DNA from: Aureliella helgolandensis | GTDB taxonomy: Bacteria > Planctomycetota > Planctomycetia > Pirellulales > Pirellulaceae | Direction of reading: 5' to 3' | Assembly (NCBI RefSeq): GCF_007752135.1 | Contig: NZ_CP036298.1 | Location: 62,001 to 126,000, forward strand | Length of the DNA: 64,000 nt | Shown: positions 13,701-56,624 of the stretch, one piece after another | Layout of the letters: every line of letters begins with the position of its first letter | How positions within the stretch are numbered: position 1 is the stretch's first letter | Notes under the pieces: model-generated | What the model was told of the DNA's origin: nothing | Seen by the model: the letters and a program-made list of their open reading frames with translations, nothing else | Database searches by the model: none | Position numbers and translations under genes: made by a program

Positions 13701-14137
13701 CAGACCACTTTCGAGTACTAGGGCGGGATGTTGAGGAGAGGGGGCAGTGCGCGCCACGTCATTAGGGGCAGCCGGGCTATGACGCTCGCCTCAGGCCATT
13801 ATAGCTCGCGCGGCAAGCCTCCGCAGACGTAGCGGGCGGTGAGGCCGAGCGACGGCAAGCGTCCTTTCTCGATTGCTAACATCGTCGGAAATCGAACGCG
13901 CGAGCGGGGCACATGTTCTTAGGCCATGGTTACCGTCGGGAGGCGATTCTTGCGAATGTCCCGCGCGTTGCGACGGCAGCTCTTCTCGCTCGCATGGCCT
14001 ACGCCCCTCCCTCCCGCGGGCGGGATGGCGTCACCGATTCAAGCGTTGTAGGTGCTGTAGGCACCGCAACGGGCATGGCTGCAACGACCGGTGGTGCACG
14101 CCAGCAACACCGATCCCCAAGCCTACCCAGCGGGTTC
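13701..14137. other. Intergenic region, no gene seen
   Basis: 437 bases between the end of the cco operon and the halogenase-like gene. Long plus-strand frames cross it but continue antisense into the cytochrome gene and show arginine-rich shadow composition. No repeat or RNA gene was recognised. Confidence 0.4.
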
Positions 14138-49423: not shown

Positions 49424-49846
49424 GTGTCTGGTATTCAAGTCTCCGCAAACCTGGAGATTCCGGAAGAACAACTGGAATGGTCGTTCTCCCGGAGTAGCGG
49501 TCCTGGGGGGCAGAACGTCAACAAGGTAAATAGCAAAGCGACTCTGCGCTGGAGGCCTCAGCCTGGTGCGCTCGCCCCGGGTGTGTGGAAACGATTTCGG
49601 CAGAATGCCAAGCGGTTCATCTCCACCGCGGGGGAGGTCGTGATCCAGTCGCAAGAGTACCGCGATCAACCGCAGAATATTGAAGCTTGCCGTGAAAAGT
49701 TGCGCGAACTCCTGCGAGCTTCGTTGACGCCTCCCAAGCGGAGGGTTGCGACCAAGCCAACTCGGGCTTCGAAGCGGCGGCGATTGGATGAAAAGAAACA
49801 ACGCTCTGACAAAAAGAAGTCGCGTCAGAACAAAGATTTTCATTGA
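49424..49846 (+). CDS. arfB: Alternative ribosome-rescue factor ArfB (peptidyl-tRNA hydrolase)
   Basis: 140 residues from GTG 49424 with GGAG nine bases upstream. The RF1-like catalytic domain has WSFSRSSGPGGQNVNKVNSK (about 20-39), including the GGQ motif that hydrolyses peptidyl-tRNA, and FISTAGEVVIQSQEYRDQ. The C-terminus is a very basic, unstructured tail (SKRRRLDEKKQRSDKKKSRQ), which in ArfB enters the empty mRNA channel of stalled ribosomes. Length is normal for the family. The 176-bp repeat array begins 17 bases after the stop codon. Confidence 0.93.
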   Translation: MSGIQVSANLEIPEEQLEWSFSRSSGPGGQNVNKVNSKATLRWRPQPGALAPGVWKRFRQNAKRFISTAGEVVIQSQEYRDQPQNIEACREKLRELLRASLTPPKRRVATKPTRASKRRRLDEKKQRSDKKKSRQNKDFH

Positions 49847-49863: not shown

Positions 49864-51178
49864 CCCAGTCAACCGCTCGGTGGGATATCCACTCCCGACC
49901 AGACCATCACTCCAACGCGATGGCGAGTCATCGCACTCCCTATGGAGTGCTGCGACTCGTCGTAGCTTTCTTGCTCGGCAACCGAGAGATTTGCCAGTGG
50001 CGGCGGACGTGGGACGATCTTGAAAAAGCCGCTATTGAACCCAGTCAGCCGCTCGGTGGGATATCCACTCCCGACCAGACCACCAGTCCAACGCGATGAC
50101 GAGCCATCGCACTCCCTATGGAGTGCTGCGACTCGTCGTAGCTTTCTTGCTCGGCAACCGAGAGATTTGCCAGTGGCGGTGGACGTGGGACGACTTTGGA
50201 AAAGCCGCTATTGAACCCAGTCAGCCGCTCGGTGGGATACCCACTCCCGACCAGACCATCACTCCAAAGCGATGACGAGTCATCGCACTCCATATGGAGT
50301 GCTGCGACTCGTCGTAGCTTTCTTGCCAGGCAACCGAGAGATTTACCAGTGGCGGCGGACGTGGGACGACCTTGGAAAAGCCGCTATTGAACCCAGTCAG
50401 CCGCTCGGTGGGATACCCACTCCCGACCAGACCATCACTCCAAAGCGATGACGAGTCATCGCACTCCCTATGGAGTGCTGCGACTCGTCGTAGCTTTCTT
50501 GCCCGGCAACCGAGAGATTTGCCAGTGGCGGCGGACGTGGGACGACTTTGGAAAAGCCGCTATTGAACCCAGTCAGCCGCTCGGTGGGATATCCACTCCC
50601 GACCAGACCACCAGTCCAACGCGATGACGAGCCATCGCACTCCCTATGGAGTGCTGCGACTCGTCGTAGCTTTCTTGCCCGGCAACCGAGAGATTTGCCA
50701 GTGGCGGCGGACGTGGGACGACCTTGGAAAAGCCGCTATTGAACCCAGTCAGCCGCTCGGTGGGATATCCACTCCCGACCAGACCATCAGTCCAAAGCGA
50801 TGACGAGTCATCGCACTCCCTATGGAGTGCTGCGACTCGTCGTAGCTTTCTTGCCCGGCAACCGAGAGATTTGCCAGTGGCGGCGGACGTGGGACGACCT
50901 TGGAAAAGCCGCTATTGAACCCAGTCAGCCGCTCGGTGGGATATCCACTCCCGACCAGACCATCAGTCCAAAGCGATGACGAGTCATCGCACTCCCTATG
51001 GAGTGCTGCGACTCGTCGTAGCTTTCTTGCCCGGCAACCGAGAGATTTGCCAGTGGCGGTGGACGTGGGACGACTTTGGAAAAGTCGCTATTGAACCCAG
51101 TCAGCTGCTCGGTGGGATATCCACTCCCGACCAGGCCACCAGTCCAACGCGATGGCGAGTCACTGCACTCCCTATGGA
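49864..51178. repeat. Tandem array of 176-bp units with hairpins (7.5 copies)
   Basis: Seven full units start at 49864, 50040, 50216, 50392, 50568, 50744 and 50920, each exactly 176 bases, then a half unit from 51096 that ends inside a hairpin loop near 51178. Internal units are nearly identical; the first and last differ most (both read GATGGCGAGT where most have GATGACGAGT). Each unit holds a long imperfect hairpin (GACGAGTC, GCACTCC, CTAT loop, GGAGTGC, GACTCGTC), a small TTGC-loop-GCAA hairpin, a GTGG/CCAC hairpin, and a 9-base stem AGTGGCGGC with GCCGCTATT. The array fills the space between the convergent arfB and hsp70 genes. 176 is not a multiple of three, so it does not encode a repeat protein. 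Confidence 0.93.
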
Positions 51179-51199: not shown

Positions 51200-54085
51200 C
51201 TAGCGAAGCGTTAGTCCTAGTGGGAGAGCTTCGCCCAAGATTTGTGAGGCTTCTTCGCTTTCGAGTTGGCCTCCTTCGCGAACCAGCTTCCGGTAATGCT
51301 CCGGAGAGTCACCTGACTCGAGCTGGGCCAGGACGTCGAGGCGCAGGTCGTCATCGATATCTCGGTAGCGATCGCCGACTTTGCGAGCGCACAGCATTAG
51401 CGCTAGCGGGTAGCTCGCATTGTCGACCGTGCGTTTCAGGAGTGCGCGGAGCCAGCTCTCCACCCGCTCGGTGTCGACCACGCAGTTGAGCGGTCCATAG
51501 GTCGGCAGGCGACTTCCCAATCGGCCTAGCGTCCAGAGCATGGCTGCTTGGCTCGCTTCGTATTTCCTAGCATGCAAGAGTTGGATCAACCAGTCGCCCA
51601 GTTGCGACTTGTCGGACTTGGGGAGCAATTCCAGGGAGCCGACCAGCCGCAGCAATTCTGAGAGTTCGGCTGCATTGCCACCACCCCCACCCTTGGCGCG
51701 TCGCTGCGGATCCAGCGAGTTTCGCAAGGGAGAGGCCACTTGCTGGAAAACCGTCAACTGCTGACCGGCGGTAAAACCACCGGCGATGCGGCGCCAAAGG
51801 ATTAGTGATTCGTTGCGCGAGCTGACCGCCGGGAATGCCAGTTTGCCATGTACCGCACGCCACGTCTGAGCCACCCGCCAGTCATCGGCCGCCAGTCCAT
51901 AACCGGGGCGCAAGCTATACCCGAGTGCATTGAGCCAGCGTGCCTCATGGGCGGCGCTCTGGCGGCGTCCCTCGCTGAATTCCATCAGATCGGCCCACAT
52001 GCTGCGGAGTAGGCTGGGAGGCCAAGCATCCCGCTTGCGTCCCAAGGTCTGCGTCAAGCTGGGGATCAAACGCGACGGTTTCGCAGTGGCACCCTCCCCG
52101 AATAAGCTGGCGATTTCATGATGAGCTCGTTCGGCCAACTCCTCGTCCAGGACACCAAGTTCCGTCGCCGAGCCGTCCCCCGCGGAGTGATCCGTCTGCG
52201 TGCTTCCTCGAACGTCGAACTCGAGCTTCCATCGCTGCTCGGAGTCGATGGCATGGCAATACATTTGCAGAGTACCAATTTGACTCAGTTCAACCTCGAC
52301 ATAAACCGGCAGCGTTTCTTGACGTCGTCGTCCTGACAATTCGACCACGGTACGTAACGCGGGCAAGTCCGCGAACTCCTCGTCGGTCAAGGGGACGACG
52401 TCTCCCGCACGATCTGCCAGCCGGGTACTGGAGTAGACCATCGGAAATTGGACCGGTTGGCCCACGGTCAAATCCATCGGCATCTCTGTGAGGCGAAAGC
52501 GGTCTCCTGGGCTGGCCGAACCGGGCACGACGCAGACTCCCTGACGCGGATGGAGCGATGTTTGGATGTAGTAGGAGCAAGCCAATTTGGCTTCGATCCG
52601 CACTCCATTGCCTCGCCGTACATGCCCGAAGTAGGTTGCCCCGACCGCCACGGCCCGATCCATGCGCTCTCCATCGAGCAGGCCGGGGAGCCATCCGTTA
52701 GGCAGCCCCTCCGTCTTGGAGAACCAGCTGCCTATGACTTCTACGAGTCGGTTGCGGAGTTGACTGCTGGTCATGACTCCGCCGTTGAACAAGACCCAGT
52801 CGGGTCTGGCCGCCGCCAAGTCGCTCAACTGGTTCCGCTCGTCATCGGTCCGCCCGTCGTAGCGATGGCTCCAAAGGAAAGAGGCGAGGTGTTTGGTGAT
52901 GGCGGCATCGGTCGCAAAGGGCAAGCCAAACTCTTGAAACCCAGCCTGCTGCGCCTGGGGGTGGTCCTGCAGATCGCATTGAGGAAAGAAGCCGTCCAAG
53001 ACCGTGTGACGCACTTCATCGCGTGTAATTTCTACTTGTTGTCCGCCTCCCACCAGCTTGGAACCGCTGCCTGGTAGGTGGACCGTGTAGGCGTCTTGAA
53101 CAGACTCGCTCAACAGAGTTTCTTTGGCAACCCGGCAGGCTTGCCGCAAGGCGTCCCAGCTGCGAGGTGGCAGTGTCTTGCCGGCGGTGAGCTTCGACTC
53201 CGCAGCTTTGGCCAGCGCTAAATCGATATTGTCACCACCCAAGATCAAGTGCTGGCCAACGGCGACTCGGTGGAGTGACAGTTGGCTACGGTCCTGTGCG
53301 TCCAAGGTTTCATTGGTGCTCTCAGCCGCCTTGGTGGAGGCCTCACGCACTCGGATTAGGGTGAAATCGGTCGTACCTCCCCCGATGTCACACACCAAGA
53401 TAGTTTGCCCAGGCGCTACGGTTTGTTCCCAGGTGCGGCGATGCCGATACAGCCAAGCGTAGAATGCTGCTTGGGGTTCTTCGATCGGCAAGATTCGCTC
53501 TAGCCCCGCAGCCGCTGCTGCTTCAATCGTGAGCTGCCGCGCAACTTGGTCAAAGGAGGCGGGCAGCGTCAGCACGATGTCTTGATCGGCCAGTGGGTGG
53601 GACTTGAAAGCTTGGTCCCAGGCCCAGCGGATTTGAGCCAAATAGCGTGAACTGGCTTCGACGGGGGAGAGTTTCTCGACGCCTTCATCGTTATGCCAGG
53701 GAAGGATCTGCCCCCGACGATCGACCCCGGCATGGCACAGCCAGCTCTTGGCCGAGGAGACTTGGCGTCCAGGTAATTGGAGGCCACGGTCGCGGGCCAG
53801 ACTTCCCACCACATGGGTGTCGAAGGCATCCGCCTCGCCCGCCCCTTGCAGGGCCTCGATTTCACTTGCGAGAGGTTGGTAGAGAAACGAGGGGAGCAGC
53901 TCACGGGCTTCGACCGTCCCAAAATCGACCCATTGCTGGACCGGAAAGTACTGGATTGCAGCGGTCTCCTTGGTGGCGTCGAGATAGGCCACTGCACAGT
54001 TGGTTGTGCCCAGATCTATACCGACGATATAGCGACTGAGCTCTTCTTCAAAACCATCCAATTCGACTTGGTCCGTCACTTGCAT
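51200..54085 (-). CDS. Large Hsp70-like protein with extra C-terminal domain (DUF3731-like)
   Basis: 961 residues from ATG 54085. The Hsp70 nucleotide-binding domain is intact: phosphate-1 YIVGIDLGTTNCAVAYLD (about 18-35), LPASFDQVARQLTIEAAAAA, IEEPQAAFYAWL, phosphate-2 LVCDIGGGTTDFTLIRV, and adenosine-site LFNGGVMTSSQLRNRLVEVI. The substrate domain is not DnaK-like: after about residue 620 come helical sequences with RPGYGLAADDWRVAQTWRAV and QQLTVFQQVASPLRN, which fit the DUF3731 extension known on a branch of bacterial Hsp70s. It lies downstream of a second Hsp70-like gene with 58 bases between and shares most motifs with it, a clear duplication. Client unknown. Confidence 0.9.
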   Translation of the reverse strand: MQVTDQVELDGFEEELSRYIVGIDLGTTNCAVAYLDATKETAAIQYFPVQQWVDFGTVEARELLPSFLYQPLASEIEALQGAGEADAFDTHVVGSLARDRGLQLPGRQVSSAKSWLCHAGVDRRGQILPWHNDEGVEKLSPVEASSRYLAQIRWAWDQAFKSHPLADQDIVLTLPASFDQVARQLTIEAAAAAGLERILPIEEPQAAFYAWLYRHRRTWEQTVAPGQTILVCDIGGGTTDFTLIRVREASTKAAESTNETLDAQDRSQLSLHRVAVGQHLILGGDNIDLALAKAAESKLTAGKTLPPRSWDALRQACRVAKETLLSESVQDAYTVHLPGSGSKLVGGGQQVEITRDEVRHTVLDGFFPQCDLQDHPQAQQAGFQEFGLPFATDAAITKHLASFLWSHRYDGRTDDERNQLSDLAAARPDWVLFNGGVMTSSQLRNRLVEVIGSWFSKTEGLPNGWLPGLLDGERMDRAVAVGATYFGHVRRGNGVRIEAKLACSYYIQTSLHPRQGVCVVPGSASPGDRFRLTEMPMDLTVGQPVQFPMVYSSTRLADRAGDVVPLTDEEFADLPALRTVVELSGRRRQETLPVYVEVELSQIGTLQMYCHAIDSEQRWKLEFDVRGSTQTDHSAGDGSATELGVLDEELAERAHHEIASLFGEGATAKPSRLIPSLTQTLGRKRDAWPPSLLRSMWADLMEFSEGRRQSAAHEARWLNALGYSLRPGYGLAADDWRVAQTWRAVHGKLAFPAVSSRNESLILWRRIAGGFTAGQQLTVFQQVASPLRNSLDPQRRAKGGGGGNAAELSELLRLVGSLELLPKSDKSQLGDWLIQLLHARKYEASQAAMLWTLGRLGSRLPTYGPLNCVVDTERVESWLRALLKRTVDNASYPLALMLCARKVGDRYRDIDDDLRLDVLAQLESGDSPEHYRKLVREGGQLESEEASQILGEALPLGLTLR

Positions 54086-55949: not shown

Positions 55950-56093
55950 AGTATTAATGTGGGGATTTCATCGGTTCGATGGATGGAAGGGGACGCCGCA
56001 TGCTGGGTGCCTCACTCGCAACTCGCTGCATGTGGATCGCGTCACTCGCGTCCCGCTGTACTTTGGATGCGTCAATCGTAACCCGCCGCGTGA

Positions 56094-56209
56094 CGGGCTG
56101 TTGATTTAATCGCAATTTGAATTTTAATGCGGAGGTGGCATCCTTAATTGGCTTGTAGCGGAGGTTATCTTTCCTTGCTCACGCGGCGGGTTACTATTTC
56201 AACAGCCCG
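56094..56209. mobile_element. MITE-like element, copy B
   Basis: 116 bases with the 11-base inverted termini CGGGCTGTTGA / TCAACAGCCCG, nearly identical in reverse complement to copy A at 40111-40226. A second partial right end (30 bases ending TTTCAACAGCCCG) follows at 56211-56240. The whole 147-base insert is bracketed by GTGA at 56090-56093 and 56241-56244. Sibling sequence without the insert is present at 56420. Confidence 0.72.
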
Positions 56210-56624
56210 TTACGCGGCGGGTTATTATTTCAACAGCCCGGTGAGCAAGGACGGATGTTGTTGCTGCAAGGCAGTTAGGAGCCCTGCCTCCGTGCTAAAA
56301 CTAAAAAACATTCTTAAATCTGCAGTTGCGTGAGGTAGGCGGTACTCGCAACCCGCCGCATGTGGTGTGTGCCACTTGCGTCCCGCTGTACTTTGGATGC
56401 GTCAATCGTAACCCGCCGCGTGAGCAAGGACGGATGTTGTTGCTGCAGGGCAGTTAGGAGCCCTGCCTCCGTGCTAAAACTAAAAAAAAGCATTCTTAAA
56501 TCTGCAAGCTGCGTAAGCCTGACTCGCAGTGCAACGGATTGTTGAATTCGCTGCATTCTCCAACCCAACGCTTAGATCGCACCCCGAATCGAGTTGCCTC
56601 AGCAACCAACCCGGCCTGGCCCAT

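Follow-up and report, generated by a model that had tools for sequence, protein, structure and literature searches.

A 176-bp tandem array between arfB and hsp70 in Aureliella helgolandensis: very probable REPINs with a GGA[G/C] tag, in a genome with a split RAYT gene

The gap between two convergent genes, arfB-like and hsp70, is 1353 bp long in the window (the whole stretch of Aureliella helgolandensis DNA analysed, 64,000 nt) and is filled, apart from 38 bp (17 + 21), by a tandem array. Tandem Repeats Finder scored this array at 2392 (96% matches, 0% indels), by far the highest of its 8 rows in the window. An earlier, sequence-only reading had described seven and a half units of exactly 176 bp lying between convergent arfB and hsp70, and this was borne out, with no indels. 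The features are as follows, elements being delimited as explained below.

49424..49846, forward strand: arfB-like gene, RF-1 domain (Pfam), converging on the array
49864..51178, forward strand: tandem array, period 176, 7.5 units (Tandem Repeats Finder)
49864..49939, forward strand: 5'-truncated first element, right part only, with the right REP at its end
49944..50115, forward strand: complete element (REPIN) 1; left REP 49944-49966, right REP 50093-50115 on the other strand
50120..50291, forward strand: complete element (REPIN) 2
50266..50321, no strand assigned: example of a junction palindrome (right REP, 4-bp spacer, next element's left REP), with a reverse-strand match of the same 56 bp
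50296..50467, forward strand: complete element (REPIN) 3
50472..50643, forward strand: complete element (REPIN) 4
50648..50819, forward strand: complete element (REPIN) 5
50824..50995, forward strand: complete element (REPIN) 6
51000..51171, forward strand: complete element (REPIN) 7; behind it, a short stub similar to the beginning of a left REP
51200..54085, reverse strand: HSP70/DUF3731 protein gene, converging on the array

Units 1–7 differed from the consensus by 6, 5, 6, 4, 2, 1 and 4 substitutions per 176, and the last half unit by 6/83; the suggestion that the terminal units are the most diverged thus holds for the last half unit but not for the first, which is no worse than the third. 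CRISPR is excluded, as had been argued, by units uniform at 176 bp and without unique spacers. An interrupted palindrome was indeed present in each unit, at unit positions 51–106, although it covers 56 bp rather than the ~40 bases first estimated. Folding was stronger than in shuffled sequences, both for 65-nt junction DNA (z = −6.2) and for the 176-nt unit as RNA (z = −3.9 and −4.1 for the two strands). Such a strong fold on both strands would suit an array of functional non-coding RNAs or transcription boundaries, in which each unit held a selected RNA structure or a bidirectional terminator, but an Rfam search of the unit returned no family at gathering score (best 27 bits, against 268 needed).

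What had been described as a hairpin in each unit is really a meeting of neighbours. Single-copy relatives of the unit (L011, L015, L018 and L020) start with sequence resembling GGAGTGCTGCGACTCGTCGTAGC and end with sequence resembling GCGATGACGAGTCATCGCACTCC, and since single-copy elements start and end at those REPs, the conspicuous hairpin is the junction of two abutting elements, each contributing a terminal REP hairpin. In the window the element is 172 bp long and comprises two inverted REPs, tags outward, around a linker; in each REP the tag GGA[G/C]T precedes an unbulged stem of 8 bp closed by a 2-nt TY loop. Counted by elements, the array, with its 8 right and 7 left REPs, comprises one truncated element and then 7 complete ones. 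Junctions measured 4 bp in 29/40 cases and 6 bp in 11/40. The first five bases of the genome's own ends were GGAGT in 88/147 and GGACT in 55/147; these ends carry GGA[G/C] instead of the canonical GT[AG]G tag, and the repeat is therefore classed as a variant REP and kept apart from the GTAG REPs.

The stems covaried. A gapless alignment of 69 distinct ends, taken from this genome and relatives, had 94.2% of stem cells paired and 82 two-sided changes, compared with 26.9 in shuffles. Because these 69 rows had been filtered for pairing and share ancestry (1/70 was dropped: L039, an opposite-strand shadow match), the test was redone unfiltered on exact pattern matches, where all three variable pairs form in 115/120 own matches and 28/36 others. 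Left and right stems are unlike in sequence and each covaries within itself. A palindrome with a covarying stem thus follows a conserved tetranucleotide, GGA[G/C], as in a REP.

These ends were also considered as those of a MITE derived from an IS630/Tc1-like DDE transposon, which would have inverted repeats at its termini and duplicate a TA target. The element ends are inverted repeats, and TA stands on both sides of 3/6 single own elements (L015, L018 and L020), which had given the first idea of an IS630-like MITE. That idea was dropped: in other genomes the outer bases, judged by eye, are mostly TTT...AAA, continuing the palindrome, with no target duplication seen. Moreover, stems that differ in sequence and covary each within itself suggest local hairpins rather than long terminal repeats, and the gene bracketed by REP ends (see below) is a RAYT, not a DDE transposase. 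A MITE origin is highly improbable.

The repeat is multi-copy and extragenic. The 176-bp unit gave 115 BLAST matches in its own 8.44-Mb chromosome, a figure that takes in the window array and opposite-strand palindrome matches, and many matches sit in other tandem arrays, with periods of 168–292 bp. A REP covariance model matched the genome at least 148 times (150 candidates scored), and 0/26 clustered loci overlapped an ORF predicted by a crude gene caller. Within the ~324 kb fetched around unit matches were 60 complete elements at 20 loci, 6 of them single and 14 tandem with 2–7 units, so that the unit is the inverted doublet with outward tags, as in a REPIN. Strong unit matches lay at 0.1–0.9 Mb and 5.8–7.4 Mb; between these two regions were a match at 3.54 Mb and another, weak, at 4.50 Mb.

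Elements resembled their neighbours far more than elements elsewhere: mean identity was 0.916 within loci versus 0.653 between loci, the nearest neighbour came from the same locus for 49/54 elements, and linkers differed from locus to locus. High identity within loci and low identity between them is a sequence pattern pointing to an origin of the REPIN arrays by local amplification; local unequal exchange fits this homogeneity, in keeping with the unequal crossing-over proposed earlier. Three less uniform arrays are, on the same measure, not clean local amplifications (L021 5740, mean 0.712, lengths 174–403; L020 5981, 0.710; L023 3778, 0.799). Tandem repeats are often mis-assembled, and several contigs of a draft relative (G152) end in or near REPs, but here the chromosome is one contig, the units differ by substitutions and there are many arrays with other periods; the assembly artefact for which the sequence-only reading had allowed is unsupported, and we consider it barely credible.

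Gene context was drawn from the same crude caller, which missed arfB (added by hand). Eight loci were convergent, 16 co-directional and one divergent, with one of unknown orientation; all gene pairs of the fetched stretches comprised 35 convergent, 130 co-directional and 33 divergent. The non-coding RNA or boundary array is in harmony with the convergent position of the array here and the 0/26 overlap with ORFs, and REPs are reported to lie mostly between convergent or co-directional genes (available text of PMC3733652). Against it stand the mixture of orientations, linkers that are not conserved between loci and a same-genus relative (G155) without an array at arfB–hsp70, and we regard it as unlikely. 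Selection might instead have favoured the array as a set of binding sites for gyrase or another protein, relieving supercoiling where genes converge, a role proposed for E. coli REPs, which are reported gyrase targets (PMC3733652, in part). This reading draws on the same convergent position and on a modest excess of convergent loci (8/25, versus 35/198 gene pairs); this excess, based on crude gene calls, is not significant (Fisher p = 0.11) and most loci are co-directional, making such selection equally improbable. We take the arrays to be relics of mobile repeats, any effect on transcription or supercoiling being secondary.

Among relatives, REPs occurred sporadically. The left-end pattern (≤2 mismatches) was found in 14/149 genomes of the family, own included; in 5 of the 14 it matched once only, and the reversed control likewise hit 5 genomes once each. 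The REP covariance model matched 5/15 genomes of the genus and at least 7/244 of the phylum (own included in both), the latter a lower bound because of stricter filters, and as far as such matches reflect presence the distribution across the phylum is patchy. REPs in other genomes again formed inverted doublets, some in tandem (L043, L211 and L264). In draft G152, contigs end inside or within tens of bases of REPs (L214, L215, L218, L219 and L220), as expected if arrays break short-read assemblies.

At the strictness used, no REP match was found at the best 80 hsp70 relatives listed (743 kb), the closest relative among the matches listed being 62% identical. In the stretches fetched, arfB lay beside the hsp70 match in 1/9 same-genus relatives, G155, where the gap is 38 bp long, with no repeats, in a genome (85% complete) with no REP-model match. 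This gap is too diverged to show an insertion point, and its agreement in length with the 38 bp that remain of the window gap once the array is subtracted may be coincidence.

To find a transposase partner, 14 genomes including the present one were scanned for Y1 (IS200-like) genes with Pfam PF01797, and 87 of the 115 matches were retrieved for a scan with the REP model. The only PF01797 gene in genome G310 (L227, 195 aa) had six REP-model matches around it, and NCBIfam identifies its product as a REP-associated tyrosine transposase (RAYT; 83 bits against a cut-off of 80). Against PF01797 the cognate RAYT reaches just 26 bits. Close relatives of L227 (44–55% identity) numbered two in G101, one in G016 and three in G290, the clade having the motifs NHYH (NHDH in L264) and Y[VT][HN][QE]N[PA]. 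REPs flank the RAYT-clade gene on both sides at 7/7 uninterrupted loci (L227, L253, L254, L264, L255, L265 and L272), a count in which the association at L227, the discovery locus, is therefore not independent, the matches at L272 and L265 are weak (27–31 bits) and a RAYT fragment beside L265 (L281, G290) is left out. By comparison, 0/99 other distinct Y1 loci (86 of the 87 PF01797 loci and 13 new ones, some cut by contig ends) carried REPs on each side at a distance of up to 700 bp, and 6/99 carried them on one side only (L114, L068, L084, L236, L269 and L089).

Close members of the RAYT clade (E < 1e-20) were present in 5/18 REP-bearing genomes, namely the present one (a split copy), G310, G101, G016 and G290; the search found none in the other 13/18, mostly drafts. 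Several genomes were rich in REPs and yet lacked a close RAYT (G120, G059, G154, G275 and G152), and genomes that keep REPs after RAYT loss have been described (PMC6006769, in the text available).

Other candidates for the partner were set aside. None of the seven PF01797 Y1 genes of the genome itself carries a GGA[G/C] REP. Relatives' Y1 genes L068 and L084 have GGA[G/C] REPs on one side only, with other short repeats at their own flanks (CCAGGGGCGTTGCCCCTGG; GGGGTCAGGCGTC). By eye, no transposase-like ORF was recognised at two loci with a left end only (L010 and L012), and a 1.6-kb REP bracket at G154:C25 encloses a glycosyltransferase-like ORF.

With a relative as query, exactly two matches were obtained in this genome, and they are two parts of one gene, absent among the PF01797 matches and found only in this way:

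C1:7292699-7292983: split RAYT, N part; profile 8-88, NHYH kept
C1:7294810-7295082: split RAYT, C part; profile 108-146, YVHQN kept

Between the two parts is an IS1380-family transposase gene (NCBIfam, 258 bits). Judged by eye, CCTTAAATAAG and CTTGTTTAAGG delimit the insert, and ACTAGA flanks it on either side. The N-part ORF is preceded by a REPIN array that ends ~150 bp ahead of it, ~370 bp ahead of the earliest matching residue; on the other flank, a single REPIN begins seven bases past the C-part stop codon. To judge from this arrangement, the only RAYT copy found in the genome is split by an IS1380-family insertion and lies between REPINs. A cognate RAYT flanked by the same REPs, the arrangement of a REPtron, is thus seen at the 7/7 loci above and at the split own copy. 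Right-end sequence of the IS1380-family insert also occurs just before another REPIN array (L017, ~14040–14090), and hence another copy of the IS, or what is left of one, stands beside REPINs there.

The anatomy has clear parallels, which are drawn here from the available parts of the sources cited. Pseudomonas fluorescens SBW25 has 16 tandem clusters of nearly identical REPINs (Bertels and Rainey, PMC3116915) and shares with the present case an inverted REP doublet as the mobile unit, tandem clusters and RAYT genes beside REPIN clusters; however, in SBW25 the repeated unit includes flanks and the largest cluster reported there is four REPINs and one REP, whereas the elements here abut with 4–6 bp, in up to seven complete copies, and have the tag GGA[G/C] (PMC3116915). 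E. coli-type BIMEs likewise pair a REP with an inverted one across a linker and often follow one another in tandem, and REPtrons (TnpA_REP) consist of a Y1 HUH transposase gene flanked by REPs, as here, but E. coli REPs have GTAG and a bulged stem in place of GGA[G/C], an unbulged 8-bp stem and a TY loop (PMC8266576, PMC6006769). The combination of NHYH/NHDH with Y[VT][HN][QE]N[PA] was not found in the motif table of PMC6006769, in the form available.

REPs have been reported in the planctomycete R. baltica, and Di Nocera and colleagues describe REP dimers reiterated in tandem (PMC3733652). The GTAG and CGTC super-families treated there resemble the present repeats in stem length, TY loops, tags-outside dimers and tandem reiteration, but neither tag matches GGA[G/C], although a prior listing as a variant within the GTAG/CGTC literature is possible; the CGTC super-family in particular has a CGTC-type tag and a 4–5 nt loop, where these REPs have GGA[G/C] and 2 nt (PMC3733652, in part). 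Class 3 TnpA_Y1 of Planctomycetes, Acidobacteria and Proteobacteria also places planctomycete Y1 genes beside non-canonical REP-like structures, but with a CnGA foot and NHVH and YV..EQ motifs, in contrast to the GGA[G/C] and Y[VT][HN][QE]N[PA] found here (PMC6006769, in part). Neither the GGA[G/C]-tagged family nor its RAYT was met in the open-access literature in the parts available, where an earlier listing among the R. baltica families (PMC3733652) is possible. The kind of element is already known; on this comparison it is the non-GTAG tag and the length of the arrays that are new.

The array is thus very probably a tandem run of REPINs, of BIME type, spread by a RAYT and then locally multiplied. 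The sequence-only reading had held that no family of this form was described, a view left unsupported by an anatomy that is REPIN/BIME in tandem (PMC3116915, PMC8266576 and PMC3733652, in part) and by a RAYT clade with the same REPs; the finding that it had named as removing the interest, a transposon repeat with known function, has largely come true, as a transposon repeat of known type. The RAYT, a HUH/Y1 single-strand transposase, would once have acted on single-stranded DNA, recognising tag and hairpin and dispersing the doublets, one of which would have landed in the ~38 bp then separating arfB from hsp70. Copies in head-to-tail order would then have multiplied in place through unequal recombination or replication slippage, processes that would also keep the units of an array alike and the period exact. 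With an IS1380-family insertion interrupting the only RAYT copy found, the arrays in this genome probably survive as relics that change in copy number only by recombination. Any role in transcription, or in relaxing supercoils between the convergent genes, would be a by-product and not the reason for the arrays.

A broader proposal is more doubtful but deserves statement: the GGA[G/C] REPs might form a further Planctomycetota REP class with its own RAYT clade, in which G or C at tag position 4 shifts the cleavage dinucleotide according to the guide rule, and in which, after interruption of the RAYT, the orphaned REPINs here have become arrays resembling satellite DNA, whose growth and shrinkage depend on recombination alone. 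In one system the REP tag guides the choice of cleavage site, and by that rule GGAG and GGAC tags are predicted to select different dinucleotides (PMC8266576, in part). The REP/RAYT partnership is extended to a non-GTAG tag whose guide position is naturally either G or C, offering a test of cleavage-site choice by RAYTs. One single-contig chromosome, with 14 tandem loci that can be compared, unites a mobile-repeat population, its transposase and the interruption of that transposase, and suggests a route from transposon relic to bacterial satellite DNA.

Other repeats share the chromosome. Small Y1 genes of the genome itself (L029, L030 and L031) are accompanied by other hairpins, with CCTGGGRC stems (CCTGGGGC/CCTGGGAC), some after GTAG, and these genes and their hairpins apparently constitute a second REP/RAYT pair, as far as sequence can tell. 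Unrelated tandem units, with periods of 112–477, were seen at L009 (10331–11940 and 2167–3194), L013 (2235–3461), L021 (1448–1947 and 4455–5077), L022 (6516–7843) and L023 (5103–5866); three of these arrays (L009 10331, L013 2235 and L021 1448) have in common a motif like CCCGCTGCGTMAGCAAGGA, and the unrelated arrays may be other REP-like families amplified in the same way. The window itself has short tandem repeats at 56004-56086 (30 bp) and 56181-56240 (31 bp), the first containing CGCAACCCGCTGC, like one of the unrelated arrays. Finally, ORFs that read through a REP (L227, L207, L253 and L254) encode peptides like ECGDLSPL and DKSPHS, strings that may serve as markers of spurious proteins or wrong starts in planctomycete annotations.
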